A stretch of 64,000 nucleotides of DNA, taken from positions 1,400 through 65,399 of the forward strand of contig NVWA01000004.1 in assembly GCA_002746535.1 (NCBI GenBank), read 5' to 3'. Below are positions 16,468 through 64,000 of this stretch, in pieces. Under the pieces are notes generated by a model, which did no database searches, had not been told where the DNA came from, and saw nothing but the letters and a program-made list of their open reading frames with translations. The translations under genes were made by a program, and so were the position numbers. The first letter of the stretch is position 1. Every line of letters starts with the position of its first letter. This DNA is from Planctomycetota bacterium. GTDB lineage: Bacteria; Planctomycetota; GCA-2746535.

Positions 16468-16717
16468 TTATTTTTTATCCAAAATTGGTTATATATTGTG
16501 CAATTACTTAGAAACCTGATTGTATTATTAAGTAGATAACGGTCAAGCAAGCAATTCACACAATAGATTGATTTTCAAGCAAAATTATGAGTAAATTGAG
16601 ATTCTTTTGGGTTGTTTTACTATTCTCGCCCTGACAAAATTGTAATGATTGGGTAATTTATGTGCAAGGAATCCTTATAGATGATAGAATTAAGTTATTT
16701 ACTTTAAGGTGTTTGAA

Positions 16718-17182: not shown

Positions 17183-17534
17183 ACAGAAAAGAGTAGATGC
17201 TGAAGTACTGTTCTGCATACTAAAAAGTCAACATCATGTTGAAGAAGTGCTAACAGGTTTTATGGAGCTTGGCATTTCAGGAGCATCAATATTAGAATCA
17301 AAAGGGATGGCACAAATATTAACTGAGCAAGTTCCCATTTTTGCAGGTTTCAGATCACTGTTTGCTGGTGAAGGTAGCGATAGCCAACTTATTGTCTCCG
17401 TAATTAAAACTGATCTTGTAGAAGATGCTATCGATCTAATAGAAGAAATTTGTGGCGATTTTGTTGTGCCTGGTTCAGGTATTATGTTCACACTTCCTGT
17501 TTGCCGAGTTGCCGGACTCATCCGAAACATTTAG
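17175..17534 (+). CDS. PII-like small regulatory protein
   Basis: 119 residues from the ATG at 17175, chosen because AGAGG lies about nine bases upstream; the ATG at 17166 directly abuts that sequence. The fold looks ferredoxin-like: a beta strand EVLFCILKSQHHVEEVLTGFMELGISGASILE resembles the GlnB opening, then a mid-loop region PIFAGFRSLFAGEG and a second strand-helix SQLIVSVIKTDLVEDAIDLIEEI. There is no T-loop Tyr or canonical GlnB signature, so it is a PII-like protein, not GlnB. It overlaps the PTS IIA gene by 8 nt and ends 12 nt before the first antiporter. A nucleotide- or metabolite-sensing subunit of the transporter is the simplest reading. Confidence 0.6.
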   Translation: MSEQKRVDAEVLFCILKSQHHVEEVLTGFMELGISGASILESKGMAQILTEQVPIFAGFRSLFAGEGSDSQLIVSVIKTDLVEDAIDLIEEICGDFVVPGSGIMFTLPVCRVAGLIRNI

Positions 17535-17546
17535 AAGAATATTAAT

Positions 17547-18779: not shown

Positions 18780-20113
18780 AATTCCTGACAGTAATATGTT
18801 TATTCGGCATCATGCTCGTACTTCAAATGATCCTAAACACCAGCAACTCGGATGTTATTGAAAGAGCTCCTTTGGCTCTTGGCTTCATAATGCTAACCGG
18901 ACACCTACTTGGACACATTGCAAATAGATTTAACCTTCCACGAATTACAGGATATCTTATTGGAGGTGTTATTGCCGGTCCCTATATTGCAAAAATATTT
19001 CCAGAATTATTTTTCTTTCATGGATTTCTACAGGTTGACGTTGTCAATCAACTAAGCACAGTAGATAAATTAGCATTAACACTAATTGCATTTACCGCTG
19101 GAGGAGAATGCCGTATTGAAAGTATAAAGAAAAGTATCAAAAGTATTCTTATAATCGCTATATCCCATATGACCCTTGTTGTTTCAATTGTTGCTGGATT
19201 TTTATTTTTAATATCCTCTTACATGAATATTTTTGACGGAATGAACTCTTTTCATTGTTTTCTAGTATGTCTTCTAATTGGTGTTATCTCAAGTGCAAAC
19301 TCGCCAGCATCAATTATTGCTATCATTGTTGAAACCAAATCAAAAGGACGTCTAACTGAACTAGCCATCGGAGTAACCGTATTAAAAGATATTTTAGTGA
19401 TCATTCTTTTCACCATCTCAGTTAGCTTAATAATGCCTATTTTAGCACCTGGACACGGTGATGCTAAATCCATCATGATACTTTTAAGAGAATTATTGAT
19501 GTCTATAATCGTTGGTATTGGCATTGGATATGGAATTATTTTTTATCTCAAATCTTTTGAAAAACAAAGGACTGTATTTATATTCATCCTTTCATTAATA
19601 ATTTTAGCCATGTCAGACTATCTTCATCTCGAGTTTTTATTAGTGGCTATTGTTGCTGGCTTTGTCATTGAAAATTTTTCGAAACAAGGCATCCATTTTA
19701 TCCATTCGATTGAAAGAGCTTCTACTCCAGTTTTTTTAGTTTTCTTCGCAATAACCGGAGCGGGTCTGCACTTAGATAGCTTAATTAAATTATGGCCAAT
19801 TGCTCTTGCTATATTCGCGATAAGAATTATGGCTGTCATCTTGGCAACATGGCTATCTAACACAATTACAAAAGAAGATGACAAAATTAAAAAATACTCT
19901 TGGACAGCATTTCTTGCACAAGCTGGAGTTAGTTTAGGTTTTGCAAAATTAGTTGGAGCAGCGTTTCCGGATGAAACATTTGGAGCACAACTTGAAGGAA
20001 TTATTATAGGTGCTATAGTTCTAAATGAAATCGCTGGCCCTATTATATTTAAATGGGGATTAACAAAATCCGGAGAAGCTACTGTCCTTGATTCTACGGG
20101 CGGTGGACACTAA
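18776..20113 (+). CDS. Cation/proton antiporter (CPA2-type), second of a tandem pair
   Basis: 445 residues, starting at a TTG preceded by GAGGAG six bases away and overlapping the upstream antiporter stop. About 12-13 helices. NRFNLPRITGYLIGGVIAGP is the classical CPA2 opening (P...GYL..G...GP). FTAGGECRIESIKK and SSANSPASIIAIIVETKSKGRLTELAIGVTVLKDILVIILFTI carry the SPA...E and KD positions of the ion site. QAGVSLGFAKLVG is the C-terminal signature helix. No regulatory RCK domain is present. It is the last gene of the IIA/PII-like/antiporter operon. Confidence 0.82.
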   Translation: MKFLTVICLFGIMLVLQMILNTSNSDVIERAPLALGFIMLTGHLLGHIANRFNLPRITGYLIGGVIAGPYIAKIFPELFFFHGFLQVDVVNQLSTVDKLALTLIAFTAGGECRIESIKKSIKSILIIAISHMTLVVSIVAGFLFLISSYMNIFDGMNSFHCFLVCLLIGVISSANSPASIIAIIVETKSKGRLTELAIGVTVLKDILVIILFTISVSLIMPILAPGHGDAKSIMILLRELLMSIIVGIGIGYGIIFYLKSFEKQRTVFIFILSLIILAMSDYLHLEFLLVAIVAGFVIENFSKQGIHFIHSIERASTPVFLVFFAITGAGLHLDSLIKLWPIALAIFAIRIMAVILATWLSNTITKEDDKIKKYSWTAFLAQAGVSLGFAKLVGAAFPDETFGAQLEGIIIGAIVLNEIAGPIIFKWGLTKSGEATVLDSTGGGH

Positions 20114-48738: not shown

Positions 48739-49074
48739 TCATATCACTGACAAATTCAAATCTTTTTGAATTTCTTTAGGTTTAACCATATCAGCAGAAT
48801 TTTTACTTGGAAAATCGGCTTCACCTGGAAAACCTAATTTTATCAGTAAATCTTTGATCAAACATTGATTCGTTATTCCAGATTGAACAAGATTTATTCC
48901 AATACCAGCAAGACCTATGTAAAATAGAGGATGAATCAACAATGCTAATATTACAGTAAAAATTACAGATACACCGGCAAGAATCCTACCAACTCTTTCG
49001 TGAGATATTTTTCTAGTGATAAAAATATTCACAAACCTTTGACTATCACTTTGACTAAATCTATTCGTATTCAT
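48739..49074 (-). CDS. YgaP/DUF2892-like two-helix membrane protein
   Basis: 111 residues. ERVGRILAGVSVIFTVILAL (helix 1, ~28-46) and IGLAGIGINLVQSGITNQCLIKDLLIKLG (helix 2, ~50-68, then the conserved Cys71). The E.RVgR..aG...l opening and sG.t..C....lL..LG end are typical of DUF2892/YgaP inner-membrane modules. The same module forms the N-terminus of the protein at 62617, where DRYGRLISG and SISDKCIVHDFLIQLG align. GGAG precedes the ATG by five bases. It is 23 nt downstream of a FeeM-like synthase gene, so the two form one operon. Confidence 0.7.
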   Translation of the reverse strand: MNTNRFSQSDSQRFVNIFITRKISHERVGRILAGVSVIFTVILALLIHPLFYIGLAGIGINLVQSGITNQCLIKDLLIKLGFPGEADFPSKNSADMVKPKEIQKDLNLSVI

Positions 49075-49097
49075 AGCTACTCCAATCTATTCTTAAA

Positions 49098-49925
49098 TTA
49101 TAAAACACAAGAAACGGCAGGTCTATACATTTCAAATTCTTCTTCTGTCCAAGAAGAATCTTTCCCTTTTAAGAACGCCATAACTTTATTTTGAGCCGCT
49201 TCACCATAAAAATTTCTAGCAAATCTTGGAATTTTTGAATCTCCATTATTTTTATTATCTCTAAACTTTTTAACTTGATTTGATAAATATTTTAGCGAAG
49301 TCGATAACAAAATCCCCGGACTACCATTAACTCTTTCGCAAGGTTTGGCTTCACCAATTTGCTGAAAACAAAATAGTTTAGTATAAAATTTTAAATGTCT
49401 TGGGTGCACTTCTACAAGAAAGTCCGTTTGCTTCATATTGTGAAAAGCATGGATGAAAATAAAATGAAACATTCTCAACAAAATAGTCTTTGATGTTCTA
49501 TATTCCGGTGCTATTGCTAGACGAGTAATCTCCGCTAATCGACGATTCATTTTTCTTAATGAAAATAATTCCTCATTAAAAATTTGATCACATGGTAACC
49601 CGTCACCAGCTTCAAAATTTAAAGTTACAGTGCCAACGGCTTTTCCTTCTTTGGTTTCTACCAATAATGTAAAAACGTTTTTACCACCATCAAAACTATT
49701 TACACAAACTTTATCTTCATTATGAATATATCCTGATTCGTTGTACACTTTGTAACCCAATTCATAGGCCTTTCGTCTAGAATCAATGTCCGTAGCGACA
49801 ATAAAATTAAAATCTTCTTCATCATTTAAGTCAACTTTTAGCACAGGTTTTTTAGCAGTAGCGCTAATTATTTTTATGACTTGTGAAACAGCTGAAATTC
49901 TTCTTTTTTTATTTGAAGCAATCAT
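49098..49925 (-). CDS. FeeM-like (N-acyl amino acid synthase/LuxI-type) GNAT protein
   Basis: 275 residues from the ATG at 49925, chosen because AGGAG stands seven bases upstream and an upstream frame extension has no ribosome site. GNAT fold resembling the N-acyl amino acid synthase FeeM group: SRRKAYELGYKVYNESGY is the N-terminal LuxI-like helix, GLPCDQIFNEELFSLRKMNRRLAEITRLAIAPEYRTSKTILLRMFHFIFIHAFHN the acyl-carrier-binding middle, and VEVHPRHLKFYTKLFCFQQIG plus PCERVNGSP the C-terminal signature. FeeM transfers acyl groups from acyl-ACP to an amino acid. A related group is the PEP-CTERM/exosortase-associated acyltransferases; no exosortase gene is in view. It is preceded by a sigma-54 promoter and followed by a DUF2892 gene. 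Confidence 0.7.
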   Translation of the reverse strand: MIASNKKRRISAVSQVIKIISATAKKPVLKVDLNDEEDFNFIVATDIDSRRKAYELGYKVYNESGYIHNEDKVCVNSFDGGKNVFTLLVETKEGKAVGTVTLNFEAGDGLPCDQIFNEELFSLRKMNRRLAEITRLAIAPEYRTSKTILLRMFHFIFIHAFHNMKQTDFLVEVHPRHLKFYTKLFCFQQIGEAKPCERVNGSPGILLSTSLKYLSNQVKKFRDNKNNGDSKIPRFARNFYGEAAQNKVMAFLKGKDSSWTEEEFEMYRPAVSCVL

Positions 49926-49963
49926 TTTATTTCTCCTGTGATAATAAACATATTGAGTATAAA

Positions 49964-49978
49964 GCATTTAGTATGCCG
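49964..49978 (-). promoter_or_regulatory. Sigma-54 (-24/-12) promoter of the FeeM-like gene
   Basis: On the minus strand: CGGCATACTAAATGC. GG and GC are ten bases apart, as sigma-54 requires; GGCA matches the -24 core and ATGC three of four -12 bases. The GC lies 39 nt upstream of the ATG at 49925, leaving a short leader with the AGGAG site. The divergent neighbour encodes a sigma-54 activator. Confidence 0.6.
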
Positions 49979-50067
49979 AATATTCACTATTTCATAAATA
50001 CAGTATTTTCAATGGGTTAGAATATTACAGAGAAAAGATGGATAATTATTTTGACTTCAGTCGTTTA

Positions 50068-50082
50068 ATTATTACTAATAAT
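50068..50082. repeat. Short AT-rich palindrome in the divergent promoter region
   Basis: ATTATTACTAATAAT, perfect 7-bp arms around one base, about 90-104 nt upstream of the sigma-54 promoter on the minus strand. Distance suits an activator site, but AT-rich palindromes arise easily by chance and it does not match the inverted repeat at 63927. Confidence 0.25.
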
Positions 50083-50119
50083 ATCTCTATATTTTCTCTA
50101 TTGATTATAGGCAATTATA

Positions 50120-52498
50120 ATGGCTTCAAAAAATAAAACGTATCATCCATTGATTGCCGCTTTTATTGAAAAGCTACATTGGTGGGACACCTTAGAAAAA
50201 ATAAAAAAAAAGCTAGACACAGATGTATATAATATTTTCAAGCTACATGAAGATCTTCACAAGACACCTCGTGAAAATATAGAGCAATTAGCAGAGAAAT
50301 TCAAAAAGGCCATTCCACTCTTTAACAATTTTCTTAAAAAAAAATGTGACCCAGACCTTCAGTTTTTATCGCTACTCTATTGGTTTGAGGACTGCATGAA
50401 AGTTGGGACATTTATAGATGCAGATTTCGTAAAAAATCATTTAGAAAAAATTCTTAATAAAAATACTCCTGATGAATTGCAAAGTATTTTCTATGGACAT
50501 ACTGGAGTTTATTATCGGAAAAAAGGAAATGCCTCTAAAGGAAATGAATATTTATTAAAATGTGTTCAATGCCTGAAACCAGATAATCCAAGATTCATTC
50601 CCGTTTTAATTAATTATGGAAATATCACTAGCTATTTTGGTACGTATCCAAAAATTAAAAATGACATTGAGCTATATTTAAAAGATACAGACAAAGATTT
50701 TAAACATTGGGGTGATCTATTACTATTTTTTTATTCTATTGAAATGGGTCATTTAAAACAAGCATGGGATGCCTTAAAAAATGTTCCAGAAAATGCACCT
50801 GGAGTGCTATTTTATTATCATAAATTCAAAATTCATTCGTTTGCCATCGCTTTAAATAAAATGATTCAAAATTGGAATATCACTGATTTTTCAAAAGTTG
50901 AAAAACAGGAAATTGATGAATTCATTCGCGACAGGTATAATCCAGGGAGTTTCGATCGAGGGTATAATATAAAGATTGAAATATTAGATAATATCTATTC
51001 AGGTAATAGCGATGAAGTAATTAAATTGACTCAAGAGGATAAATTAAGAAACAGAGATCATTGGGAATCAAGTTGGTTTTATTGCTCTCAAATTAGAATT
51101 GAACTCATGGCGGGCAATATTGAATCAGCCGAAATATTATTAAAAAATCTCATTTCAATTGGATATGAATTTATATGGAACGACTGGTTTATGACACGAA
51201 TTGAGCTAGCCAAAAAAAATATCGATGCTGCAAAATATTATTTTCAGAAATTATTAAAATCAGTACAAAAACATAATGCTGAAGATCGCTTTAACTTTGA
51301 GGTCAAAATAGCCCATGAAATAAAGGCAACCGATTTAATTCTATTATCAGACAATAAGAATTTAAAAATTAAAAAGCCCTCAAAGACCAAAATAAATTTA
51401 GATATTGACAGAATGCCGGCAATCATTGGAATAAGCAAACAGGTAATTAAATTAAAAGAATCAATATCAAAAGTTGCCCCGCATGACATCAATGTTTTAA
51501 TTCTAGGAGAGACAGGTACAGGTAAAGAGGTAGTCGCAAAATCACTGCACAATTTAGGCCCAAGAAAAAAAGAACCATACATTGCAATCAACTGTGCCGC
51601 CATTTCAGAAACATTACTTGAATCTGAATTATTTGGCCATCAGAAAGGTGCTTTTACGGGGGCAACAGAATACCATAAAGGTGTTTTTGAACAAGCGGGT
51701 AAGGGTACCGTTTTTTTGGATGAAATTGGTGAGATCAGCTCCAACATTCAAAGTGCTTTATTAAGAGTTTTAGAAACTAAAGATATTAAGCCGATCGGAT
51801 CATCTAAATCTTTAAAAATTAATTGTCGTATCATCGCTGCAACTAATGCCAATCTAGAGTTGAAAGTAAAAAATAACGAATTTCGAATGGATCTTCTGCA
51901 TCGCCTTAACAGAGTAGTCGTACATACAAATCCACTAAGAAAAAAAATCGAAGACATCCCCCACTTAAGCCAATATTTCTTAAATCAAAATCCGAACTTC
52001 ACAAAAGAAGCGAATCTAACCTTTGAGGCTATTGAAGCTTTAAAAAAATACCCGTGGCCAGGTAATGCTAGAGAACTTAAAAATGAAATGGAAAACCTTC
52101 GGATTTTCAATTATGAGACATCCCTTTATGATCTTCAAGATTTAGATCCAAAATTTCATGGCCGAGCGGAATCCACTGAAAAAGCAGAAGCCCTATCCCT
52201 TTCAAGTCTGCAAAGCTCCGAAAATAAACACGCGAAACCAACGGAGATAATTGATAGAGAACAAATCTTGGCAACTGAAGTTTTGTCAAACAATAAAATT
52301 TTCTTTCGAAGAATCGAAAAAATCAAAAAACTTTTTGATATTCATAACATATTAACACGAGCAGAATTAATAAAAATCATGGGAGTTTCTCACTTGACAG
52401 TAACAAAAGATTTGAAGCTATTAATTGAACAAGACTATATTAAAAAAGTCATGCCGAGTAAATCTCCACGTTCACATTATTTTGAAAAACTACCTTAG
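50120..52498 (+). CDS. Sigma-54-dependent activator with TPR-like sensor and C-terminal winged helix
   Basis: 792 residues. N-terminal ~410 residues are helical and repetitive (SKGNEYLLKCVQCLKP, GNIESAEILLKNLI), resembling TPR-like repeats instead of a receiver, GAF or PAS sensor. The AAA+ domain (~430-670) is complete: Walker A GETGTGKE (463-470), the sigma-54 contact GAFTGA (510-515), Walker B VFLDEIGE (531-538), RMDLLHRL arginine finger and WPGNARELKN. The usual Fis-type HTH is absent. Instead a winged helix at ~722-790 (ILTRAELIKIMGVSHLTVTKDLKLLIEQDYIKKV) resembles DeoR/MarR-type DNA binding. Transcribed divergently from the FeeM-like gene whose promoter it probably activates. Confidence 0.85.
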   Translation: MASKNKTYHPLIAAFIEKLHWWDTLEKIKKKLDTDVYNIFKLHEDLHKTPRENIEQLAEKFKKAIPLFNNFLKKKCDPDLQFLSLLYWFEDCMKVGTFIDADFVKNHLEKILNKNTPDELQSIFYGHTGVYYRKKGNASKGNEYLLKCVQCLKPDNPRFIPVLINYGNITSYFGTYPKIKNDIELYLKDTDKDFKHWGDLLLFFYSIEMGHLKQAWDALKNVPENAPGVLFYYHKFKIHSFAIALNKMIQNWNITDFSKVEKQEIDEFIRDRYNPGSFDRGYNIKIEILDNIYSGNSDEVIKLTQEDKLRNRDHWESSWFYCSQIRIELMAGNIESAEILLKNLISIGYEFIWNDWFMTRIELAKKNIDAAKYYFQKLLKSVQKHNAEDRFNFEVKIAHEIKATDLILLSDNKNLKIKKPSKTKINLDIDRMPAIIGISKQVIKLKESISKVAPHDINVLILGETGTGKEVVAKSLHNLGPRKKEPYIAINCAAISETLLESELFGHQKGAFTGATEYHKGVFEQAGKGTVFLDEIGEISSNIQSALLRVLETKDIKPIGSSKSLKINCRIIAATNANLELKVKNNEFRMDLLHRLNRVVVHTNPLRKKIEDIPHLSQYFLNQNPNFTKEANLTFEAIEALKKYPWPGNARELKNEMENLRIFNYETSLYDLQDLDPKFHGRAESTEKAEALSLSSLQSSENKHAKPTEIIDREQILATEVLSNNKIFFRRIEKIKKLFDIHNILTRAELIKIMGVSHLTVTKDLKLLIEQDYIKKVMPSKSPRSHYFEKLP

Positions 52499-52652
52499 TC
52501 CTCAACATTAACTTTTTTCAAATTAAGTATCTATATGTAAAACCGCTACAACTCATTCTGTTGTAATATTGTTTCCATACAACATATATATAGAAACACC
52601 AAATTAGAAGACTAAACTTCTTTGAAAAGAATTCAATTTGAGAATATCTACC

Positions 52653-55600
52653 ATGCATATCTTTAATACTAAATTTTTTATAGTAATTTCGGCACAAATA
52701 TTTTTACTTTTCATATCTATTCATTCTGAAGATTGGCCAATGTGGAAAGGTACCTCCGGACGCGGTGGAGTAAACAATGAGACATTACCCAGTAAAATGA
52801 ATTTGCTATGGACTCGTCAATTTCCAAAATCAAAACCAGCATGGGCTAATAACAAAAGCCAAGCAAAACTTCAGTTTGATGTATCCTTTCAACCAGTTGT
52901 TATGGGTAAAAGTATATTCGTACCTTCAAATGTTAATGATAGTGTAAGTGCATATGATACCGATAGCGGTAAGCAAAAATGGATTTTTTATTCTGATGGC
53001 CCTGTAAGATTTGCACCCGTGGCCAATGATAATAAAGTTTATTTTGTATCGGATGACGGTTACTTGTATTGCCTCAATGCAGAATCAGGAAAACTAATCT
53101 GGAAATATAATGGTGGACCTGAAAATAGGAAAATCCTTGGTCGTGATCGATTAATTTCTATCTGGCCAGCTCGTGGAGCACCAGTGCTAAAAAATAAAAA
53201 AATATTTTTTGCCGCCAGCATTTTCCCCTTTATGGGAACTTTCATTCATTGTGTGGATGCAAATTCAGGCAAAATGATTTGGAGAGATACAGGCAACGGA
53301 CCTAAATATTTTACGCAACCTCATGGTGCTGGATCTTTTGCTGGTCTTTCTCCTCAGGGATACCTTGCTGCAGGTGATAAATATTTAATCGTACCCGGAG
53401 GAAAATCTTTACCGGCTGTATATGACATTGAAACGGGGAAATTCTTATACTATTATTTGAACAGTAAGAAAGGCGGTTACAGTGTTCAAGCAGGTAAAAA
53501 CTTTTATTTTACCGGTGGTTATGCCAATCAAATTAACAAAACAGAAAAAGGCTTTTCTATCATCAATGGTATATACGCCACTTACGGAAACACCTTAATT
53601 TCAGACAAGGCCATGTATCTTTTACATAATAGTATAATTACGGCTTACCGATTCAAGCCAGAATTTGAAATGAAGGTATATAAAAAAAATAGAAAAAAAG
53701 CTTATCTTACCATGCCAGTTTTGGGCGAATTCACAATTCCTTCGCCAAAAAGTGCTGTCAGGATCAAAGCCGGGAATCAAATTATTCTATATGAGCGTTA
53801 CAAAAAACATCTTTACGCTGTTAAGCTACCAAATGAAGAAACACTATTAAAAGCAAAAGCCGGGGAATCTGTAAAACAAAACTTACCCACTATTTGGACT
53901 ATCCCGACAGGAAAAAGCCCATGGTCTGTTATTGCTGCAGATAAAAAAGTTTTTGTGGTTACACACGAAGGACTATTATCTTGTTATGGTGCAAGCACAC
54001 AAGAGGTCCAAAAACATAACATTGCCTTAACTCCATTACCAGACACTTCAAACTCGGTTGCTAAATCATTGTTAGAAGTTTTAAAAGAATTGAAAATTAA
54101 AGACGGCTATTGTGTTTTAGCAGGCTTAGGAAATGATAAATTAGCTGAAACGCTAATTAACAAAACAAACCTTTCTATAATTGCTGTCGATTCAGATAAA
54201 TCAAAAATAAATTCATTAAGACATTCAACTGATCAAGCTGGCTTTTATGGCAATAGAATGTCAGTACATGAAGGCGATCCCCTTTCATATCCACTCCCAC
54301 CCTATTTCGCAAACATAATAATTATAACAAATTTAAGCAAACGTTTTTTATATAGTAAATCTAACTTAAAAACTTTATTTAATTCACTACGTCCTTATGG
54401 TGGCACAGCTTTCTTTAAAGTATCTCCATCAGATATTGATAAAGTTAAAGCTCTATCTACAAAAGCAGGTCTTATTAATGCTGAAATAAAAGCTTCAAAT
54501 GGATGGATGCTCTTAATTCGTAAGGGCGCACTTCCTGATTCTGCAGAATGGTCCCACCAGTATGCCGATTCATCAAATAGTATATTTGGCAAAGATAAAC
54601 TTGTCAAACTACCCCTAGGATTATTATGGTTTGGCGGTCCTCCAAATACAAATGTTCTACCAAGACATGGTCATGGTCCATCCCCTCAAGTGGCAGGCGG
54701 CAGAGTTATTATAGAAGGTCAGAATATGTTAAGGGCTGTTGATGCTTACACAGGCAGGTTACTTTGGGAACTTAAGTTAAAAAATCTAGGATATTATTAT
54801 CGACATACGGGCCATCATCCTGGTGCTAATGAAATTGGAGGAAATTACGTATCATTACAAGACACTATATATGTTGCTTATGGGAAAGATCTTTTATTTT
54901 TAGAAGCAGCTACAGGCAATTTGTTAAAAAAAATAAATTACAAAGAAAATGATAGCGACAAAGAATCTAAAACATGGGGTCATATTTCTGTTCACAAAAA
55001 TTATTTAATTACAACAACCTCACCAATTACATTTAAAATACAAAAAGATAAAACAGCTATAATAAATAAAAATGCAAAGTATTCTTCTGGAAGTGAACAA
55101 ATAATAGTACTTAATCGCAAGACGGGAAAAATACTCTGGAAACGAAAAGCCAAATTCAATTTTAGGCACAATGCCATATGCAGTGGCGATGGTGTCTTAT
55201 TTTGCATTGACTCTTTCTCAAAAAGTAAATTTAATTATTTAAGAAACCAAGAAGAGAAAATCGGAAAACTATTAGCACTTGATATCAAAACTGGGAAAGA
55301 AATTTGGTCCAGTAATGAAAATATAACAGGAACCTTTTTAAATTATTCTGATAAACACAAAGTCCTTCTCCAGGCCGGTAGCTCCAACCGAGACAGGGCC
55401 AGAGATGAGACAAAAACAGGCATGATAGTTTATCAAGCTAAAGATGGAAAAGTAGTCTGGCAAAATTTAAAAATAAAATACGGAGGCCCATTAATTATCC
55501 GACACAAAGAAATCATTACCAATGGTGGTGGTGGCACAGGAATTGATTTACTTTCAGGCAAAGCCACAAGTTTTAAGTGGAAACGAAACTACGGATGCAA

Positions 55601-56342
55601 CACCGCTATTAGTTCAGAACACCTACTGACCTTTCGATCAGGGGCAGCAGGTTTTTATGATTTAACTAATAGAGGCGGAACAGGAAACTTCGGTGGTTTT
55701 AAATCCAGTTGTACATCAAATCTTATTCCAGCTGATGGAATACTAAATGCTCCCGATTATACCAGAACTTGTTCATGTGCTTATCAGCTCACTGTCTCCT
55801 GTGCTTTGGTCCATATGCCTGATGTAGAGTACTGGACATTTAAAGCTGATGCTACTCCTGGAAAATGGGGATTCAATATTGCTGCATTAGGAGATAGGAA
55901 AGTCCCCAATGGTTCTTTGTGGCGAAAATTTGACATTTTAAAAAACAGAAAATATATACGATCAACTTCTGGCAAATTAACACCGTTCAGAGTTCATTCA
56001 GGCTACGTTAAAGGAGAAAAGTTTAAATGGGTTGCTTCCTCTGGAGTAAAAGGTTTAACTGATTTAAACATCAATGTTAAGGGAGCTACCAAAGGTACCG
56101 TTAGGCTAATTTTCATGGAACCAGACAAACTCAAAATAGGAGATAGAATCTTTGATATATCATTGCAGGGAAAAGAGTTAATTAAAGGGCTTGATATAAT
56201 CAAAGAATCTGGAGGACAAAATCATGTCCTGATCAAAGAATTTAAAGATATCGAATTAAACAATTCATTAAAAATTATATTTAAAGCATCCACAAAGAAC
56301 CCACCTATTCTCAGCGGAATAGAAATTATCAAAACAAATTAG
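52653..56342 (+). CDS. Secreted double PQQ-type beta-propeller protein with an inserted methyltransferase-like domain
   Basis: 1,229 residues from the ATG at 52653; an in-frame TTG at 52638 is also possible. Signal peptide (FNTKFFIVISAQIFLLFISIHS) then DWPMWKG..GRGG, the usual start of exported PQQ-like propellers. Propeller 1 spans ~30-455 with repeats of the form AYDTDSGKQKW, CLNAESGKLIWKY and DANSGKMIWRD. A Rossmann-like domain at ~465-625 (YCVLAGLGNDKLAETL, IIAVDSDKSKINSL, ANIIIITN, FNSLRPYGGTAFFKV) resembles a class I methyltransferase but lacks a clear GxGxG motif. Propeller 2 (~635-1,085) has AVDAYTGRLLWELKL and similar units. A C-terminal beta domain follows. Occurs in PVC bacteria; function unknown. 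Confidence 0.7.
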   Translation: MHIFNTKFFIVISAQIFLLFISIHSEDWPMWKGTSGRGGVNNETLPSKMNLLWTRQFPKSKPAWANNKSQAKLQFDVSFQPVVMGKSIFVPSNVNDSVSAYDTDSGKQKWIFYSDGPVRFAPVANDNKVYFVSDDGYLYCLNAESGKLIWKYNGGPENRKILGRDRLISIWPARGAPVLKNKKIFFAASIFPFMGTFIHCVDANSGKMIWRDTGNGPKYFTQPHGAGSFAGLSPQGYLAAGDKYLIVPGGKSLPAVYDIETGKFLYYYLNSKKGGYSVQAGKNFYFTGGYANQINKTEKGFSIINGIYATYGNTLISDKAMYLLHNSIITAYRFKPEFEMKVYKKNRKKAYLTMPVLGEFTIPSPKSAVRIKAGNQIILYERYKKHLYAVKLPNEETLLKAKAGESVKQNLPTIWTIPTGKSPWSVIAADKKVFVVTHEGLLSCYGASTQEVQKHNIALTPLPDTSNSVAKSLLEVLKELKIKDGYCVLAGLGNDKLAETLINKTNLSIIAVDSDKSKINSLRHSTDQAGFYGNRMSVHEGDPLSYPLPPYFANIIIITNLSKRFLYSKSNLKTLFNSLRPYGGTAFFKVSPSDIDKVKALSTKAGLINAEIKASNGWMLLIRKGALPDSAEWSHQYADSSNSIFGKDKLVKLPLGLLWFGGPPNTNVLPRHGHGPSPQVAGGRVIIEGQNMLRAVDAYTGRLLWELKLKNLGYYYRHTGHHPGANEIGGNYVSLQDTIYVAYGKDLLFLEAATGNLLKKINYKENDSDKESKTWGHISVHKNYLITTTSPITFKIQKDKTAIINKNAKYSSGSEQIIVLNRKTGKILWKRKAKFNFRHNAICSGDGVLFCIDSFSKSKFNYLRNQEEKIGKLLALDIKTGKEIWSSNENITGTFLNYSDKHKVLLQAGSSNRDRARDETKTGMIVYQAKDGKVVWQNLKIKYGGPLIIRHKEIITNGGGGTGIDLLSGKATSFKWKRNYGCNTAISSEHLLTFRSGAAGFYDLTNRGGTGNFGGFKSSCTSNLIPADGILNAPDYTRTCSCAYQLTVSCALVHMPDVEYWTFKADATPGKWGFNIAALGDRKVPNGSLWRKFDILKNRKYIRSTSGKLTPFRVHSGYVKGEKFKWVASSGVKGLTDLNINVKGATKGTVRLIFMEPDKLKIGDRIFDISLQGKELIKGLDIIKESGGQNHVLIKEFKDIELNNSLKIIFKASTKNPPILSGIEIIKTN

Positions 56343-56374
56343 GCAACAGTCGTAGGTTGGGCTGCAGACTATTT

Positions 56375-57211
56375 TCAATCGCCAGAATCGATTAAACCTA
56401 CCGTGTCAATTCCCAGTAGTTGATTATCTAGCCACTGCATTACACTTGGCCACAATTTCTGTGTCCAATCGTTTTGAGGATTATAAAAAAATCCATGGCC
56501 AGAATTGGGGCTAGGTATAAAAGTGACTGGTCTCTCATTTTTCATTAATGCGTTAGCAAGAATTAAGGATTGATCATAAGGAACCGTTTCATCAAAAGGA
56601 TCGTGCACAATATACATAGGTGAAGAATTTTTATCAACATGCAATGCTGGAGAAGCTTGGACATATACTTCTTCAATTTCTTCAATGGTACCACCTAAGA
56701 AATGAGCTCTTTTATTTTTTGTTTTTTCATAATTATTTTCTAGATAAACAAAATCATGAACTCCATGAACATCAACCACACAATTAACTTTAGCAGAGAC
56801 CCCATCATGCTCTTGGCCAAATACACCTAGGCAAGCAACTAGATGCCCTCCGGCAGAACTGCCGATGGCACCAATCTTATCAACACTGATTTTAAAGCGA
56901 TCTGCATTTTTACGAAACCAAACAACAGCTGACTGACAATCGATTAAAGCAGCAGGAAACACAGCCACTTGGGATAGTCGATAGCTAATTGTACAAGCAA
57001 CATAACCGTGTAAAGCAAGACGATGAGCATGCCATAAAAATTGATTTCGATCGCCAGCATTCCAGCCCCCGCCATGCACTAAGATGATACCGGCGCCATT
57101 TTGTTTTTTTTCACTAGGTAGGAATACATCTGCAGTAAGTTCTGTTTCGCCATAAATGGCAAAGACCTCGGAAAGATCGGGGTCAGGAAACTCTTTTTCG
57201 TAATATGTCAT
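56375..57211 (-). CDS. Alpha/beta hydrolase, acetyl-esterase/lipase (BD-FAE-like) type
   Basis: 278 residues. ADVFLPSEKKQNGAGIILVHGGGWNAGDRNQF carries the HGGGW oxyanion hole. Nucleophile elbow GSSAGGH, acid DPFDETVPYDQS, and His in SGHGFF complete the triad. ALIDCQSAVVWFRKNADRF is the family helix preceding the elbow. No signal peptide. Likely de-esterifies sugar or xylan-type substituents. Its 3' end faces the PQQ gene. Confidence 0.88.
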   Translation of the reverse strand: MTYYEKEFPDPDLSEVFAIYGETELTADVFLPSEKKQNGAGIILVHGGGWNAGDRNQFLWHAHRLALHGYVACTISYRLSQVAVFPAALIDCQSAVVWFRKNADRFKISVDKIGAIGSSAGGHLVACLGVFGQEHDGVSAKVNCVVDVHGVHDFVYLENNYEKTKNKRAHFLGGTIEEIEEVYVQASPALHVDKNSSPMYIVHDPFDETVPYDQSLILANALMKNERPVTFIPSPNSGHGFFYNPQNDWTQKLWPSVMQWLDNQLLGIDTVGLIDSGD

Positions 57212-57247
57212 TTATAACTTTCTTCAGTAATACAATGAAAAATAAAC

Positions 57248-57263
57248 ACAAAGCATGCTTTGT
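57248..57263. repeat. 16-bp perfect palindrome, likely half of a dispersed hairpin element
   Basis: ACAAAGCATGCTTTGT, followed by CTCTAC. The GTCTCTAC end resembles the GTCTCTA end of the 48567-48708 element, so this may be a related intergenic repeat. Lies between the esterase and the metallophosphoesterase, which are divergent. Confidence 0.35.
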
Positions 57264-57340
57264 CTCTACAAAAATATATTGATAGATGATTCTCTCAAAT
57301 ATAATATGATTTCCAATAAATAACTTAAAGAAAAACGGCA

Positions 57341-58207
57341 ATGACAAAGTTCATCTATATTTCAGATACTCATTTTGGTGCCAATCCTATGAATTATCAT
57401 CAACAGGAAGGTTATCCAGAAAAGCTTCCAGAAATTATTTTAAAATTAAATGAATTCATCAAAAACAGAGACGATATAGATTTTGTTCTTCATGGTGGGG
57501 ATATGATTGATAGTGTTTCTGAACAAACCATTTCAATGGCAAGCAAGTATTTTAAATTTGATGTTCCTATTTACCTTTGTCTTGGCAATCATGATTTAAC
57601 CGAATTGAATTCGTTGGATCTTTGGCTCAAAATTGCTCCTCAATATTTTAACGATACAAATAAACCTATCTTCACTATTACAACAAAAGATTGCCTCATC
57701 CATGTCATCCCTAATCACTGGGAGGAAATCCCTTATTACTGGAGTGAAACTCAAGAGGCCTATTTATCGGAAGAACAAATTAATAATCTTTCACACGAAC
57801 TAAACAAATCAACCGATTTTCCTCATATCGTTTTAACACATAGTCCCATTTTTGGCTTACCCACTGAACAAACAGGACAAGAAGAAATATACCACTCCCC
57901 AAATGAAAATTTCAGGAAGACCTTAACTTCTCTAGCACAGAATCACAAGACTATCAAATGTATCCTTGGTGGTCACAACCATTTGAATATGAATTTAAAA
58001 CATGAGAATGTTCAGTATGTTACAGCTAGTTCTTTTTCAGAAGCACCCTTTGACTTCAAACTTTTTGAAGTTTCAAAAAACTCAATCACAATGGAAACAA
58101 TAAACCTAGCTGACTCACTTGATTTTAATATTGAATACAACTCAGAAAAATCGTATGTTCAAGGTCGACCAATTGACCGAAAGTTCGCAATAAACTTTGA
58201 TTTATGA
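57341..58207 (+). CDS. Calcineurin-like metallophosphoesterase
   Basis: 288 residues. The dimetal motifs are all visible: YISDTHFG (D.H), LHGGDMID (GD..D), LGNHD (GNHD), VLTHSPIFG (H) and LGGHNHLN (GHNH). Resembles the CpdA/3',5'-cyclic-nucleotide phosphodiesterase-like group. Substrate unknown. Overlaps the propeller glycosidase gene by 6 nt convergently. Confidence 0.85.
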   Translation: MTKFIYISDTHFGANPMNYHQQEGYPEKLPEIILKLNEFIKNRDDIDFVLHGGDMIDSVSEQTISMASKYFKFDVPIYLCLGNHDLTELNSLDLWLKIAPQYFNDTNKPIFTITTKDCLIHVIPNHWEEIPYYWSETQEAYLSEEQINNLSHELNKSTDFPHIVLTHSPIFGLPTEQTGQEEIYHSPNENFRKTLTSLAQNHKTIKCILGGHNHLNMNLKHENVQYVTASSFSEAPFDFKLFEVSKNSITMETINLADSLDFNIEYNSEKSYVQGRPIDRKFAINFDL

Positions 58208-59287
58208 ATTACCATAAATATGTTTCTTTTGGTCTGTATGATTTAACTCTACTCTGTTTTTCGAATCCATATTAATCGTACCAATAGCACTCATAACAGT
58301 ATTAGATGTTCCTCCATCTTTAGCACCAACATATACTAAATGATACTTCTCATCAATTAAAATTGAACTAGGAGATGCGAGTTCTTCAGAATCATTATCA
58401 TCCATTGAACCTCTAGCTAAAACATTTTTACTTTGGTGTGTAAGCGTAACACCATCATCGGCTAAATATATTTCATAAAGTTCAACAAAACGAGCCATGC
58501 CTCCACTAGCTCTATTTCCAACTCCGCAGATTGCAGCATAACCGCCATCATCTAAGACTCGGATTGAATTCGGATCAAGCTCATGCCAAATAATCATCCG
58601 ATCTTCTTCAACTGATTGACCTTCAATAGGTTCTAATACATGAAGCCTTTTCCAGTTAATCGCATCATCAGAACCCCAAAGAGCTGAATAATAATCATTC
58701 CCACCCCCATGAAGCGAATAACCAATATACTTATTTTCAATTCCAGAAAAAGGATTCTTACTCCAACGGAAATATCCGGTATGACCATCACCTGGATCTT
58801 CATCCGGATTATATTTTAATATAACAGAATCCTCGTCGCCATTAATTCTAGAAAAACTAATACCATCATCTGAAGTAGCTAATAAAGTTGCCTGACTTGG
58901 ACCAATACCATTTTTGTGATAAGATAAAAATACTTTTCCATCAACTACATTGGCATGTGGTGTTTCCGTATGGCCATCTCCTTGTACATTATCAAAATAA
59001 ATCGGATTCGATAATGGCTTTATTGCAATGTGATCAAACGCACCTTCCCCTAAAACATCATCATAAGACTTCCAACTTTTCGCTTCAGATGGCACCCCAT
59101 TACAAACATATAGCCAAATACCACCGTCTTTACTATTATGATCCGTTGAAAAATACATTGCATAATCAAACGGAAAGGTCTCAATGTTTTTCATGTCAAT
59201 TAGTGTTGTATAATAAGGTCCTGGTGCCGGCATATCATCAGGGCGAAATATAATACTACCCACTTTTGAAAAGGTGTTATTACTCAT
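58202..59287 (-). CDS. Five-bladed beta-propeller glycoside hydrolase-like protein
   Basis: 361 residues, all-beta. FRPDDMPAPGPYYTTLIDM and YAMYFSTDHNSKDGGIWLYVCNGV open the propeller, and DGHTETPHANVVDGKVFLSYHKN, TSDDGISFSRI, WSKNPFSGIENKYIGYSLHGGGNDYYSALWGSDDAINWKRL continue the blades. It resembles GH43/GH32/GH117-type propellers, but family cannot be fixed by eye. No signal peptide, so a cytoplasmic glycan-processing enzyme is likely. Lies in a cluster with two sulfatases, 30 nt downstream of the first. Confidence 0.6.
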   Translation of the reverse strand: MSNNTFSKVGSIIFRPDDMPAPGPYYTTLIDMKNIETFPFDYAMYFSTDHNSKDGGIWLYVCNGVPSEAKSWKSYDDVLGEGAFDHIAIKPLSNPIYFDNVQGDGHTETPHANVVDGKVFLSYHKNGIGPSQATLLATSDDGISFSRINGDEDSVILKYNPDEDPGDGHTGYFRWSKNPFSGIENKYIGYSLHGGGNDYYSALWGSDDAINWKRLHVLEPIEGQSVEEDRMIIWHELDPNSIRVLDDGGYAAICGVGNRASGGMARFVELYEIYLADDGVTLTHQSKNVLARGSMDDNDSEELASPSSILIDEKYHLVYVGAKDGGTSNTVMSAIGTINMDSKNRVELNHTDQKKHIYGNS

Positions 59288-59317
59288 TTTATTCTTCTTT
59301 CTAAAATATTTGTCAAT

Positions 59318-60937
59318 CTATTTAACAATAAACTCAGCACTTGTCTCTTCGCTCTCCGCAAAACCAATTCGAATAGATTTAGTTCTAATTCGATAACTAC
59401 CTTTTTCTAACATTAAAGGTTCATGATACAATTGCCATTTAATATTTTCTCCATTTTCAAACGTGTAGGCAATTGAGGCTCCCTGAGTCATGCAAACTAA
59501 TTGAACTCGAGTTGGTGAAGAAAACTCTCCTCCCATTGGTGTCAATTCAGACTCTAACTTGTTTTTATCTAGCGGGAAAAATTTCACGACACTAGTTTGT
59601 GGTTGCTTACCATCAGGATACCAATTTCTTACCATTTCTTCTTCAGTTATTTTTCCTAAATCTCCAATATCAAACATCCATTGATCAAGAGCTTTACGCA
59701 ATCTTTTTATTTCAATTTTGTATTTAGAATCTTTTGCTAAATTATTGACTTCATGGGGATCTTCTACAATATCATATAATTCTTCTGAAGGTTTTTTTTC
59801 AAACATTAATTTCTGCACATCATTCAGCTCATCACTAAAATACAAACGATGCATCTCCTGAACTATGGGATGACGATTACAATAAGGTGTAAAAGGCAAA
59901 TAAGGAGAATGAAGATCATAATGTCTCATATATTTAAATTTTTTATCTCGAACAGCTCTCACCATATCATAACTTTCATCGTGCCTATCCCGATGAGCAA
60001 AAATATATTCTCGGGCGTCCTCTTTTTCGTTTCCTAAGAACGCTTGGCCTTGCATATACTGAGGGATCTCTAGTCCTGCCAAGGACATCATCGTTGGTCC
60101 AAGATCAACTGAACTAATCAAGTCCTCATTTATTGAATCTGGCTTAACGTTCTCAGGATATCGAATGATCATAGGTATATGAATTCCAGAATCATAAGGC
60201 CAACGTTTACCGCGAGGCATTGGACCATGATCACTCCAATGTACTACGATGGTATTTTCAGCCAAGCCATCTTCGTCCAATTCTTTTAAAAGATTGCCTA
60301 ATTGTTGATCCGCCCATTCAATGTTAGCATACATTTGAGTCATAGACTCTCTAACTTTTTTAGTATCAGGAAAATAAGGTGGCAAGACCATATCATCAGG
60401 ATTAAAATTATTTTCACACCATTTATTCTCTGGCCACATGCCACTTTCATGCGTTAACATCGGATTAAATACTGCGAAAAAAGGCTGTTCTGTATTCGGA
60501 CGATTTCTCCAATGAGCCTCTTTTCCTAATTCATCCCAAGCCGTAACGGGTGATTCAAATTGATAATCAGTCTTATGATTATTAGTACAATAATATCCGC
60601 TTGCTCTAAAATATTCTGTAAAACATTTTACATAATGAGGCAACTTAGCATCATAGGGCGTGGGAAGCTCTCTACAGTTATCATTATTATGTGTCGTTCG
60701 CATATGATGAGTACCAATAGAAGTCGGATACATCCCTGTGATTACCGCTGACCTTGACGGAGAACAAACACCCGATGGCGCGAATGCATTGGGCCAAATA
60801 CAGCCATCTTTTGCAAGCTGATCAACTATTGGAGTACGGGCAACCTGATCACCATAACATCCATAAAATGGATTCGAATCTTCAAAAGATACCCATAAGA
60901 TATTCGGCCTGTTCTTAGCATTACTATTCTTACTCAT
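59318..60937 (-). CDS. Formylglycine-dependent sulfatase, cytoplasmic form
   Basis: 539 residues from the ATG at 60937 (GGAA upstream). Family start RPNILWVSFED with metal Asp positions, then SGVCSPSRSAVITGMYP: Cys58 in CSPSR is the residue converted to formylglycine. Later HWSDHGPMPRGKRWPYDSGIHIPMIIRYP carries the remaining metal ligands (DHG). The protein has no signal peptide. A C-terminal beta domain (~450-539) follows the catalytic part. Hydrolyses a sulfate ester on an oligosaccharide. The maturation enzyme is not in the window. Probably co-transcribed with the propeller glycosidase downstream. Confidence 0.9.
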   Translation of the reverse strand: MSKNSNAKNRPNILWVSFEDSNPFYGCYGDQVARTPIVDQLAKDGCIWPNAFAPSGVCSPSRSAVITGMYPTSIGTHHMRTTHNNDNCRELPTPYDAKLPHYVKCFTEYFRASGYYCTNNHKTDYQFESPVTAWDELGKEAHWRNRPNTEQPFFAVFNPMLTHESGMWPENKWCENNFNPDDMVLPPYFPDTKKVRESMTQMYANIEWADQQLGNLLKELDEDGLAENTIVVHWSDHGPMPRGKRWPYDSGIHIPMIIRYPENVKPDSINEDLISSVDLGPTMMSLAGLEIPQYMQGQAFLGNEKEDAREYIFAHRDRHDESYDMVRAVRDKKFKYMRHYDLHSPYLPFTPYCNRHPIVQEMHRLYFSDELNDVQKLMFEKKPSEELYDIVEDPHEVNNLAKDSKYKIEIKRLRKALDQWMFDIGDLGKITEEEMVRNWYPDGKQPQTSVVKFFPLDKNKLESELTPMGGEFSSPTRVQLVCMTQGASIAYTFENGENIKWQLYHEPLMLEKGSYRIRTKSIRIGFAESEETSAEFIVK

Positions 60938-60987
60938 TTTATTATTTCCAATTAAAATAATTGATATCACATGCTAGTAGTCATATG

Positions 60988-61074
60988 GTAGCACAAGCTT
61001 CCAGCATGTAACTAAAATGCTGATTATAGAATATAATATGAAAAAATTCACAACAAGCTAGAAGCTTGTACTAC
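60988..61074. repeat. Pair of inverted 22-bp repeats with nested hairpin
   Basis: Left GTAGCACAAGCTTCCAGCATGT (60988-61009) and right, read on the minus strand, GTAGTACAAGCTTCTAGCTTGT (61074-61053) agree at 19 of 22 positions. Each arm folds on itself; the right one has perfect ACAAGCT-AGA-AGCTTGT. Lies in the gap between divergent sulfatase genes. Resembles a REP/MITE-type intergenic element with 43 nt between arms. Confidence 0.6.
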
Positions 61075-61183
61075 ATAAATATTTCAATTTAAAATTTTAT
61101 TATCAAGATTGAGACATTCATTGCAATCTATGAAATATCACTATAACCATTTATACTTTTGATCACAATAATGAGGAACAATC

Positions 61184-62551
61184 ATGTCGGAGAAACCAAA
61201 CATAATTTTAATCAATTGCGATGACCTAGGTTATGGTGACCTAGCCTGTTATGGATCAAAAGTTAATAAGACTCCAGCACTTGATAAGCTGGCAGCCGAA
61301 GGAATTAAATTCACTGATTTTTATATGACATCACCTGTCTGCTCACCTTCTAGAGGTTCCATGCTAACAGGCTGCTATCCTCCAAGAATAGGTTTTGGAT
61401 CTTTTGTGAATGGCGGCTGGGTATTATTTCCAGGTGACGCATTAGGATTACATGAAGATGAAATTACGATTGCAAAATTATTAAAACAAGCAGACTATCA
61501 AACTAAGATAGTTGGCAAATGGCACTGCGGAGACCAAAAAGAATTTCTACCAATACGACATGGGTTTGATAGTTATTATGGCATACCCTATAGTAATGAC
61601 ATGGGACGCCAAAATGCCGATGATAAACAACCACCCCTACCTCTTTTAAAAGATGAAGAAGTCATCCAAGAACAACCAGATCAAAGAGGAATAACCGAGC
61701 GATACACCGAGGAATGCGTTTCTTTTATTCGAGATAATAAAGACAAACCATTCTTTTTATACCTAGCCCATATGTATGTTCATTTACCCATTTATGTACC
61801 AAAACAATTTCTCGATAAAGCTGAAAATGGACCTTATGGTGCTGCCGTTGAACACATTGATTGGGTTACTGCTGTTCTAATGGATGAACTTAAAAGGCAA
61901 GGCATAGACGATAATACATTAATCGTCTTTACCAGCGACAATGGATCTCGCGCTCAAGGGGAAGGTGGCAGCAATGCTCCACTAAGAGGACGTAAAACCC
62001 AAACCTGGGAAGGTGGCCAAAGATTACCATGCATTATGCGTTGGCCAAGAAAAATAAAATCAGGTCTCGTCAATAAAGAAATCACCTCATCTATGGATTT
62101 CTATAAAACATTCGCTGCCCTGGCAGGTGTAGAAATACCAACAGATAGAATTATTGATGGTAAAGATATTCGACCAATGCTTTTTAATGAGCCAGATGCC
62201 AAAAGTCAATACGATGCTTTTTTTTATTATAAATGCAATGATTTAGAAGCCGTTCGCTCTGGAAAATGGAAGCTACATGTGTCAAGAGACAAAGTAAAGG
62301 TTGAAGAATTATACAATTTAGAGTCTGACATAGGCGAACAAACAAACCTCTTTAATCAAGAACCTGAAATAGTCAAAGACTTAATGATAAAAATTAAAGC
62401 ATGTCAAAAAGATATCGGTGATGAAGCCGCTGGTATAAAAGGGGAGAATATACGCCCTATCGGAAAAGTTGACAGCCCTGATACGCTAACTCACTACGAT
62501 CCCGAGCATCCATACATTATTGCATTATACGATTTAAAAGAACGTGGTTAG
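61184..62551 (+). CDS. Formylglycine-dependent sulfatase (arylsulfatase-A-like), cytoplasmic form
   Basis: 455 residues. PNIILINCDDLGYGDLACYGS is the Asp-pair metal motif; Cys53 in PVCSPSRGSMLTG is the formylglycine site; IVGKWHCG carries Lys and His; FTSDNGSRAQGEGGSNAPLRGRKTQTWEGG carries DN and K. The standard arylsulfatase A fold appears complete. No signal peptide. A GAGGAA ribosome site is six bases before the ATG. Divergent from the other sulfatase. Substrate unknown; sulfated polysaccharide breakdown is inferred. Confidence 0.92.
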   Translation: MSEKPNIILINCDDLGYGDLACYGSKVNKTPALDKLAAEGIKFTDFYMTSPVCSPSRGSMLTGCYPPRIGFGSFVNGGWVLFPGDALGLHEDEITIAKLLKQADYQTKIVGKWHCGDQKEFLPIRHGFDSYYGIPYSNDMGRQNADDKQPPLPLLKDEEVIQEQPDQRGITERYTEECVSFIRDNKDKPFFLYLAHMYVHLPIYVPKQFLDKAENGPYGAAVEHIDWVTAVLMDELKRQGIDDNTLIVFTSDNGSRAQGEGGSNAPLRGRKTQTWEGGQRLPCIMRWPRKIKSGLVNKEITSSMDFYKTFAALAGVEIPTDRIIDGKDIRPMLFNEPDAKSQYDAFFYYKCNDLEAVRSGKWKLHVSRDKVKVEELYNLESDIGEQTNLFNQEPEIVKDLMIKIKACQKDIGDEAAGIKGENIRPIGKVDSPDTLTHYDPEHPYIIALYDLKERG

Positions 62552-62616
62552 GACAATTCACTTAATTAAATATATTCGCTTCATATGTCAAGCCTATGTG
62601 CATATGTTAATTCCAC

Positions 62617-63792
62617 CTAAGCAAGAACAAGTTCATGTTCAACACCAAAGTAACACATTTCATCTACACTCATTGGTCTACTTGATTCACGAATAAAATC
62701 ACCAATATAGGCTTCCTGCATTTCTAAAACAAAATAGTTGTACAATGTTTTTCTCCCAACTCTTGCTGTTGTATTTCTACCAGCAATTATTTTTTCTTCA
62801 GCTTTACCAAGATCTAGTTTTAATAAGACGGCAGGAGCTCCTTGAACCCTTCCACAAGGCTTAGAGTCACCAATTACTTCAAAACATAAAAGTCTTTTGT
62901 AATAGCCAACATGTCGAGGGTTAACCTCAATCAACATATGATCAGATGCAAGGTTTTTATATGCATGTATATAAACAAAGTTCATAAGATTTTTAATTAG
63001 GTTTCGAGAGTTCCTATAGCTTTCATCAACAACCAATCGAGTTATCTCCACCATTTTTTTATTTTGATTATTCAACTCACTTAATTCGTCTTTAAATATT
63101 TTCTGACAAGGAATATCGCCATGAACATTTGACACTACTGAAATAGAAGCCACAGAATTTCCATTTTCGTCTTCTGCTAAAAAAGTAATTGTATCCGGCC
63201 TTGCATCGTCACTATTAACAAATAATTTATTTCGATCTTGAGATGAATAGCCACACTGACCATATACTTTTTGAGATAATTGATAAACTTTCTCTCTATC
63301 AACTCGATTAGAAGCCACACTAATTCTAAAGTTGATCTTTTCAGATATCTCCCATTTTGGAGAACCAATTTCTACTTCTTCTTTTAATACCCATAGTGCT
63401 TGAGAAGTTGCTGAACGTTTTTTCTCTTTGATTTGATGCTTTTTCTCAATCTCATCTCGCACTTCAATTTTTTCACTCTTCAATACCTGTTTTAATTTTC
63501 CGCCTGAGAGAAAAATATCCTCTCTATCCTTTGCACCCAATTGAATTAAAAAATCATGAACAATACATTTATCAGATATAGAAGTTAACACTAATGAAAG
63601 ACTAACGACTAAAGCTCCCAAATTCCAATAAGGGTTGTACATACTCATGAGTAGAAAAATAGAAATTAAAAACCCACTGATTAGTCTTCCATATCTATCC
63701 ACACTCCAGTGACTAAAACTTTTAGACAAAGCTGCTTTAAAACCATTTAAATGATTGTTCAGTTTTGGGGTCTGAATCGCTGAAATACTCAT
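62617..63792 (-). CDS. Fusion of a YgaP/DUF2892-like membrane module and a FeeM-like synthase
   Basis: 391 residues. The N-terminal part (~30-90) is a two-helix DUF2892-like module: RYGRLISGFLISIFLLMSMY, LGALVVSLSLVLTSISDKCIVHDFLIQLG. A charged linker (~95-150) follows. The C-terminal GNAT part (~154-330) resembles FeeM: KVYQLSQKVYGQCGYS, IPCQKIFKDELSELNNQNKKMVEITRLVVDESYRNSRNLIKNLMNFVYIHAY, LIEVNPRHVGYYKRLLCFEVIGDSKPCGRVQGAPAVLLKL. It thus joins the two separate proteins of 48739-49925, but with the membrane part in front. Preceded by a sigma-54 promoter and GGGAGAAAG ribosome site. Probably anchored on the cytoplasmic face of the membrane. Confidence 0.72.
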   Translation of the reverse strand: MSISAIQTPKLNNHLNGFKAALSKSFSHWSVDRYGRLISGFLISIFLLMSMYNPYWNLGALVVSLSLVLTSISDKCIVHDFLIQLGAKDREDIFLSGGKLKQVLKSEKIEVRDEIEKKHQIKEKKRSATSQALWVLKEEVEIGSPKWEISEKINFRISVASNRVDREKVYQLSQKVYGQCGYSSQDRNKLFVNSDDARPDTITFLAEDENGNSVASISVVSNVHGDIPCQKIFKDELSELNNQNKKMVEITRLVVDESYRNSRNLIKNLMNFVYIHAYKNLASDHMLIEVNPRHVGYYKRLLCFEVIGDSKPCGRVQGAPAVLLKLDLGKAEEKIIAGRNTTARVGRKTLYNYFVLEMQEAYIGDFIRESSRPMSVDEMCYFGVEHELVLA

Positions 63793-63832
63793 TGTCTTTC
63801 TCCCATTAAATATCTGAATTAAATCTTCTAAT

Positions 63833-63847
63833 GCAAATCACAAGCCA
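63833..63847 (-). promoter_or_regulatory. Sigma-54 (-24/-12) promoter of the DUF2892-FeeM-like fusion gene
   Basis: On the minus strand: TGGCTTGTGATTTGC. TGGC and TTGC are full matches to the -24 and -12 cores, with GG and GC ten bases apart. The GC lies 41 nt upstream of the ATG at 63792, nearly the same as at the other FeeM-like gene (39 nt). Confidence 0.7.
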
Positions 63848-63926
63848 AATTTCAATAAATCGTAAGTTCCTAATTTTAAAAGAGTTATGATAAATGCTCA
63901 ACATTTAGCACTGGAAATAATTGACT

Positions 63927-63962
63927 TATATAGATCAATTAAAACTTAAATTGATCTATATA
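63927..63962. promoter_or_regulatory. Perfect 14-bp inverted repeat, candidate activator-binding site
   Basis: TATATAGATCAATT (63927-63940) and AATTGATCTATATA (63949-63962), separated by 8 nt. Centre is about 97 nt upstream of the sigma-54 promoter, a typical distance for a sigma-54 enhancer site. A two-fold symmetric dimer site fits the winged-helix activator class, but binding is untested. Confidence 0.45.
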
Positions 63963-64000
63963 GATTATTACAATTCCTAATATACAATAAGTAATAAAAA

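Follow-up and report, generated by a model that had tools for sequence, protein, structure and literature searches.

The window, as we call the whole stretch of 64,000 nucleotides analysed (positions 1,400 to 65,399 of the forward strand of contig NVWA01000004.1, assembly GCA_002746535.1), carries at two places, near 49 kb and near 63 kb, the same two modules: a FeeM-type GNAT domain and a YgaP-like two-helix membrane module. They are encoded by neighbouring genes at the first locus and by one gene at the second.

48739-49074, minus strand: YgaP-like two-helix membrane protein of 111 aa (PF11127 at cut-off), 23 nt 3' of the synthase gene
49098-49925, minus strand: FeeM-family putative N-acyl amino acid synthase of 275 aa (PF21926, 6.4e-42); FeeM domain at residues 52-208, window 49302-49772
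49963-49978, minus strand: -24/-12 (sigma-54 type) promoter CGGCATACTAAATGCT, 53 nt before ATG 49925
50120-52498, plus strand: divergent TPR-type sigma-54 activator of 792 aa with GAFTGA motif and C-terminal winged helix (Sigma54_activat, 9.7e-65)
62617-63792, minus strand: fusion protein of 391 aa, consisting of a YgaP-like TM module (residues 30-81, window 63550-63705), a linker and a FeeM domain (residues 169-327, window 62812-63288)
63832-63847, minus strand: -24/-12 promoter TGGCTTGTGATTTGCA, 55 nt before the fusion gene
64021 in window numbering (65420 of the contig), just outside the window: start of the divergent sigma-54 activator of the fusion locus

The start of the separate synthase is probably ATG 49925, which is preceded by an SD-like CAGGAG and gives the protein of 275 aa; it is preferred because the ATG further upstream, at 49967, is overlapped by the sigma-54-type promoter (49963-49978). 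As the preliminary description had it, the synthase comes first at 49 kb and the membrane module comes first in the fusion. The latter order, with the membrane gene leading, is the commoner one, and the 49-kb pair has the rarer reverse arrangement. The two loci had been presented as unlinked occurrences of the same modules; both exist, but they are not isolated: the genome holds 34 FeeM loci, and five of these, the two window loci included, lie on this contig. The fusion locus is adjoined by two sulfatase-like genes recognised from their translation (59318-60970, minus strand, and 61184-62551, plus strand); many planctomycetes are rich in sulfatases. A contig binned as part of a Pseudomonadales MAG (NORP220; JAESQG010000566.1, our L099) is 99.97-100% identical to window positions 48991-64000 and switches abruptly to unrelated sequence within the YgaP-like gene, which marks it as chimeric and misbinned; NORP names presumably refer to the North Pond subseafloor data set.

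The FeeM family profile PF21926 (cut-off 27 bits) matches the separate synthase with 143.5 bits (E-value 6.4e-42) and the fusion with 138.4 bits (2.3e-40), and all 34 paralogues of the genome match it as well. When a profile of the paralogues was compared with the PDB, FeeM (2g0b) was the sole sequence match (1.4e-17). The same structure was the best match by fold when the fusion was modelled with AlphaFold (TM-score 0.85 on the target), with the LuxI-type EsaI (1kzf) as a more distant one; in this model the pLDDT of the FeeM domain is mostly above 90 and the two predicted membrane helices are of low confidence. The LuxI family profile gave no match in either the synthase or the fusion (E up to 1), and the similarity to the PEP-CTERM/exosortase-associated acyltransferase TIGR03694 is weak, at 32.2 bits against a cut-off of 111.95. 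Profile and fold thus agree that the GNAT domain is FeeM rather than a member of another family. From this family and fold, which like the pairing, the regulators and the promoters described below are read from sequence, we infer FeeM-type chemistry, in which the synthase would place an acyl group, presumably supplied as acyl-ACP, on an amino acid.

The YgaP-like_TM profile PF11127 matches the separate membrane protein, which has a hydrophobic stretch at about residues 29-67, at 1.6e-5 and 25.3 bits, exactly the curated cut-off. The module of the fusion scores below that cut-off of 25.3 (0.0035, 17.9 bits) and is connected to the separate membrane protein through paralogues (6.3e-6). In the alignment of the ten YgaP-like paralogues, the fusion module included, G34, L62 and C71 are invariant. 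The conserved cysteine pointed out in the preliminary description is accordingly present in all ten; it resembles what we take to be a general cysteine of YgaP-type TM modules and, as a likely trait of the whole family, was set aside as a mark peculiar to the FeeM pair. The rhodanese domain was sought and found neither in the separate membrane protein nor in the fusion; another planctomycete, G109, does carry a true rhodanese-YgaP.

The association of the two modules extends well beyond the window. Nine of the ten YgaP-like genes of the host genome sit in FeeM operons or fusions (probability by chance about 3e-14), two of these arrangements being FeeM/YgaP-like fusions. The pairing is also present in three other Planctomycetota (G075, G323 and G109) and in two Kiritimatiellae genomes; in one of the latter the two domains follow the window's order and are separated by about 290 bp, and in the other the separation is about 1.3 kb. 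With the host this makes six genomes from two phyla, and YgaP-like modules do adjoin FeeM homologues in related genomes. The pairing was not seen at proteobacterial FeeM loci among the best 80 of a genome-wide scan; the profile for the contig scan came from a subset alignment, the family-wide alignment being too divergent. On a tree of 74 FeeM domains the label for a TM partner is distributed in a nearly random manner, changing 14 times where shuffling leads one to expect 16; at least four of the changes are forced by well-supported branches, and the partnership has therefore been formed or lost many times. In G075 C98, G075 C93 and G109 C333 a YgaP-like gene adjoins an ECF sigma factor without FeeM; the possibility that its neighbour in G075 C98 is a divergent FeeM was ruled out by profile.

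The host is a deep-branching planctomycete with a genome of 6.76 Mb in 106 contigs. FeeM is present in 54 of the 392 sampled genomes of the phylum, the host included, and the other 391 genomes hold at most 23 copies (G075 with 23 and G323 with 13 come next to the 34 of the host). Contamination was rejected as a source of these copies, as the FeeM stretches all match the window in GC (0.31-0.37) and tetranucleotide profile, and strain duplicates were rejected because the paralogues are too divergent. In G000 C43 two genes, one for a FeeM protein and one for a sigma-54 activator, are each spread over two frames (L040:8850-9613 and 16634-18934), and some cassettes may thus be decaying, or these may be sequencing errors. 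The Kiritimatiellae genome G392 (CSSed165cm_27R1), from another phylum, has a separate FeeM expansion of 15 genes in a 4-Mb draft.

FeeM cassettes take swappable partners, of which the membrane module is one of several. In the host genome it accompanies nine FeeM genes, while a FAD_binding_4 oxidase accompanies ten and ThiF two, the ThiF partner matching NCBIfam PRK08223 above its cut-off; fatty acid desaturases, NmrA-type proteins, a methyltransferase, a glycosyltransferase and TPR repeats occur as further partners, adjacent or fused. ThiF and flavin genes are missing from both window loci, and it is two other FeeM genes of the genome that ThiF adjoins. The combination of ThiF with an acyltransferase is known from the oxazolone and stieleriacine pathways (PMC12479983, PMC12856293), and this precedent supports the reading of FeeM cassettes as acyl-amino-acid cassettes. 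Two fusions, of a radical SAM domain with FeeM in G323 (L214:4878-7502, minus strand) and of a glycosyltransferase-like domain with FeeM in the host genome (L053:4948-6477, minus strand), suggest unusual acyl-amino-acid products.

About 30 of the 34 FeeM genes adjoin a regulator, which is a TPR-type sigma-54 activator in 22 cases and an ECF sigma factor in about eight. The FeeM-linked activators are proteins of about 760 aa with a helical, TPR-like N-terminus (that of the 792-aa activator at 49 kb is all-helical in a low-confidence single-sequence model); the family has about 29 members in the genome, 22 of them at FeeM loci. The elements of sigma-54-dependent regulation are all present: an AAA+ activator with GAFTGA, one rpoN gene in the genome and a -24/-12 promoter. 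The strict pattern GG-N10-GC found promoters at only 9 of 35 operons, and a second form read from the upstream regions, TTGGCAY-N5-TTTC/TTCC, raised the count to 19 of the 22 sigma-54-linked operons against none of the 11 other FeeM operons (Fisher p 2e-6); as the pattern was refined on the same upstream regions, it is the internal control of 0/11 that carries weight. A -24/-12-like element was found in 7 of 225 other genes, and 0.2 times on average after shuffling. At roughly half of the sites the usual TTGC is replaced by TTTC or TTCC. The variant -12 element occurs at some ten FeeM operons (e.g. L042 and L058) as TTGGCAT-N5-TTTCCTATAG or TTGGCAC-N5-TTTCTATAG. Distances among synthases are correlated with those among activators (Mantel r 0.51, p 0.0002, 20 pairs), and the two have therefore largely been duplicated as units.

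We consider a membrane-tethered, separately switched N-acyl amino acid cassette to be the best explanation of the window loci, and a reasonably probable one. In such a cassette the FeeM-type GNAT enzyme would move a fatty acyl group from an acyl carrier to the amino group of an amino acid or of a comparable amine. The YgaP-type two-helix hairpin, supplied by the neighbouring gene or by the N-terminal fusion, would be embedded in the inner membrane, where it would probably form a dimer as the TM domain of E. coli YgaP does, and most likely tethers the synthase there, holding it against the bilayer so that the amphipathic product may be released directly into the membrane. Transcription would start from the -24/-12 promoter and be switched by the private divergent sigma-54 activator, which has a TPR-like sensor region. 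The gene fusion and the recurrence of the pairing lead us to infer the tethering, as does the precedent set by E. coli YgaP, a rhodanese joined to a TM helix-loop-helix dimer, where the TM module carries a cytosolic enzyme (PMC4730233). Several observations count against it: 25 of the 34 FeeM genes have no membrane partner, so that an anchor cannot be a general requirement, the fusion model is of low confidence in its TM part, and YgaP-like genes stand beside ECF factors without FeeM in G075 and G109.

These last genes suit the main rival to tethering, in which the hairpin serves the regulator, acting for the ECF or sigma-54 protein as a sensor in the membrane or as an anti-sigma-like partner, and meets FeeM only through a shared operon. 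The arrangement in G075, where a YgaP-like gene sits between an ECF sigma factor and FeeM, speaks for it as well; but the module has been fused to FeeM twice and to a regulator in no case seen here, and it accompanies FeeM under both of two quite different regulator types, and we hold a regulatory role of the hairpin to be fairly unlikely. The same precedent that suggests a tether also lends something to a flippase or exporter that would move the product across or out of the membrane, as thiocyanate export has been hypothesised for YgaP (PMC4730233), cells can release N-acyl amino acids and related lipids (PMC12856293), and a small dimeric hairpin could assist in this. The protein has, however, just two helices and no match to a transporter family in the profile search, and its fusion to the enzyme fits tethering at least equally, which makes a transport function very doubtful in our opinion. 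That two common families have simply met by chance would agree with the wide distribution of the YgaP-like TM family, over its cut-off in 10 of 14 control genomes, but is refuted by the nine of ten copies in FeeM operons, the two fusions and the recurrence in six genomes of two phyla, and its probability is practically negligible. A further proposal concerns what the cassettes are for: every synthase might produce a separate acyl-amino-acid signal, tuned by the partner of that synthase, and the divergent TPR-type activator beside it might sense that product or a matching cue and switch its own operon. We think such a many-channel repertoire of lipid signals decidedly unlikely; if it were true, one cell would run more than 20 channels in parallel, in a counterpart of quorum sensing based on sigma-54.

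LuxI-type acyl-homoserine-lactone synthases offer a parallel in their related GNAT fold, in the position of the synthase beside its cognate regulator and in the co-divergence of the two, but their regulator is LuxR, whereas here it is a TPR-type sigma-54 activator and there is no LuxI family match and no sign of a lactone. The FeeM/NasY synthases of the fee cluster and of the Stieleria stieleriacine clusters (PMC7293339, PMC12479983) share Pfam family and fold (2g0b) with the enzymes described here. Stieleria genomes likewise hold several synthase copies beside ThiF, methyltransferase and oxidoreductase genes. As against 34 in our host, these papers describe four synthase genes in the cluster of S. 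maiorica and, for S. neptunia, the deletion of three predicted nasY genes; the parts consulted mention neither a membrane partner nor a private sigma-54 activator. The oxazolone pathways OxzAB, TyzACB and TrzAS (PMC10404671, PMC12856293) combine an acyltransferase with a ThiF-type cyclase, as do two host cassettes outside the window loci; the window loci themselves differ from them in the absence of ThiF and flavin genes, and the membrane module of the window has no counterpart in those pathways. E. coli YgaP resembles the window proteins in the homologous two-helix module tied to a cytosolic enzyme domain, and differs in that the rhodanese precedes the TM module, while here FeeM follows it or is a separate protein (PMC4730233).

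The enzyme family, the tailoring by ThiF and sigma-54 regulation are thus each already known, whereas the 34 copies, the swapped partners and the private regulators appear to be undescribed. Papers linking DUF2892 to N-acyl amino acids, or N-acyl amino acid synthases to sigma-54, were not found in the open-licence literature searched, in agreement with the earlier remark that no characterised system with the FeeM-DUF2892 pairing was known; the pairing has no described function. Antibiotics, surfactants and possible signals are made by FeeM-type enzymes, which to our knowledge have been met mostly as single copies or in small clusters. With its 34 FeeM genes, mostly under private sigma-54 or ECF control and with partners taken from a small set of exchangeable ones, the host genome constitutes a natural library of acyl-amino-acid chemistry, in which the effect of the choice of partner, be it membrane hairpin, oxidase, cyclase or desaturase, on the fate of the product becomes testable, and YgaP-type membrane modules that lack a rhodanese gain a candidate role.
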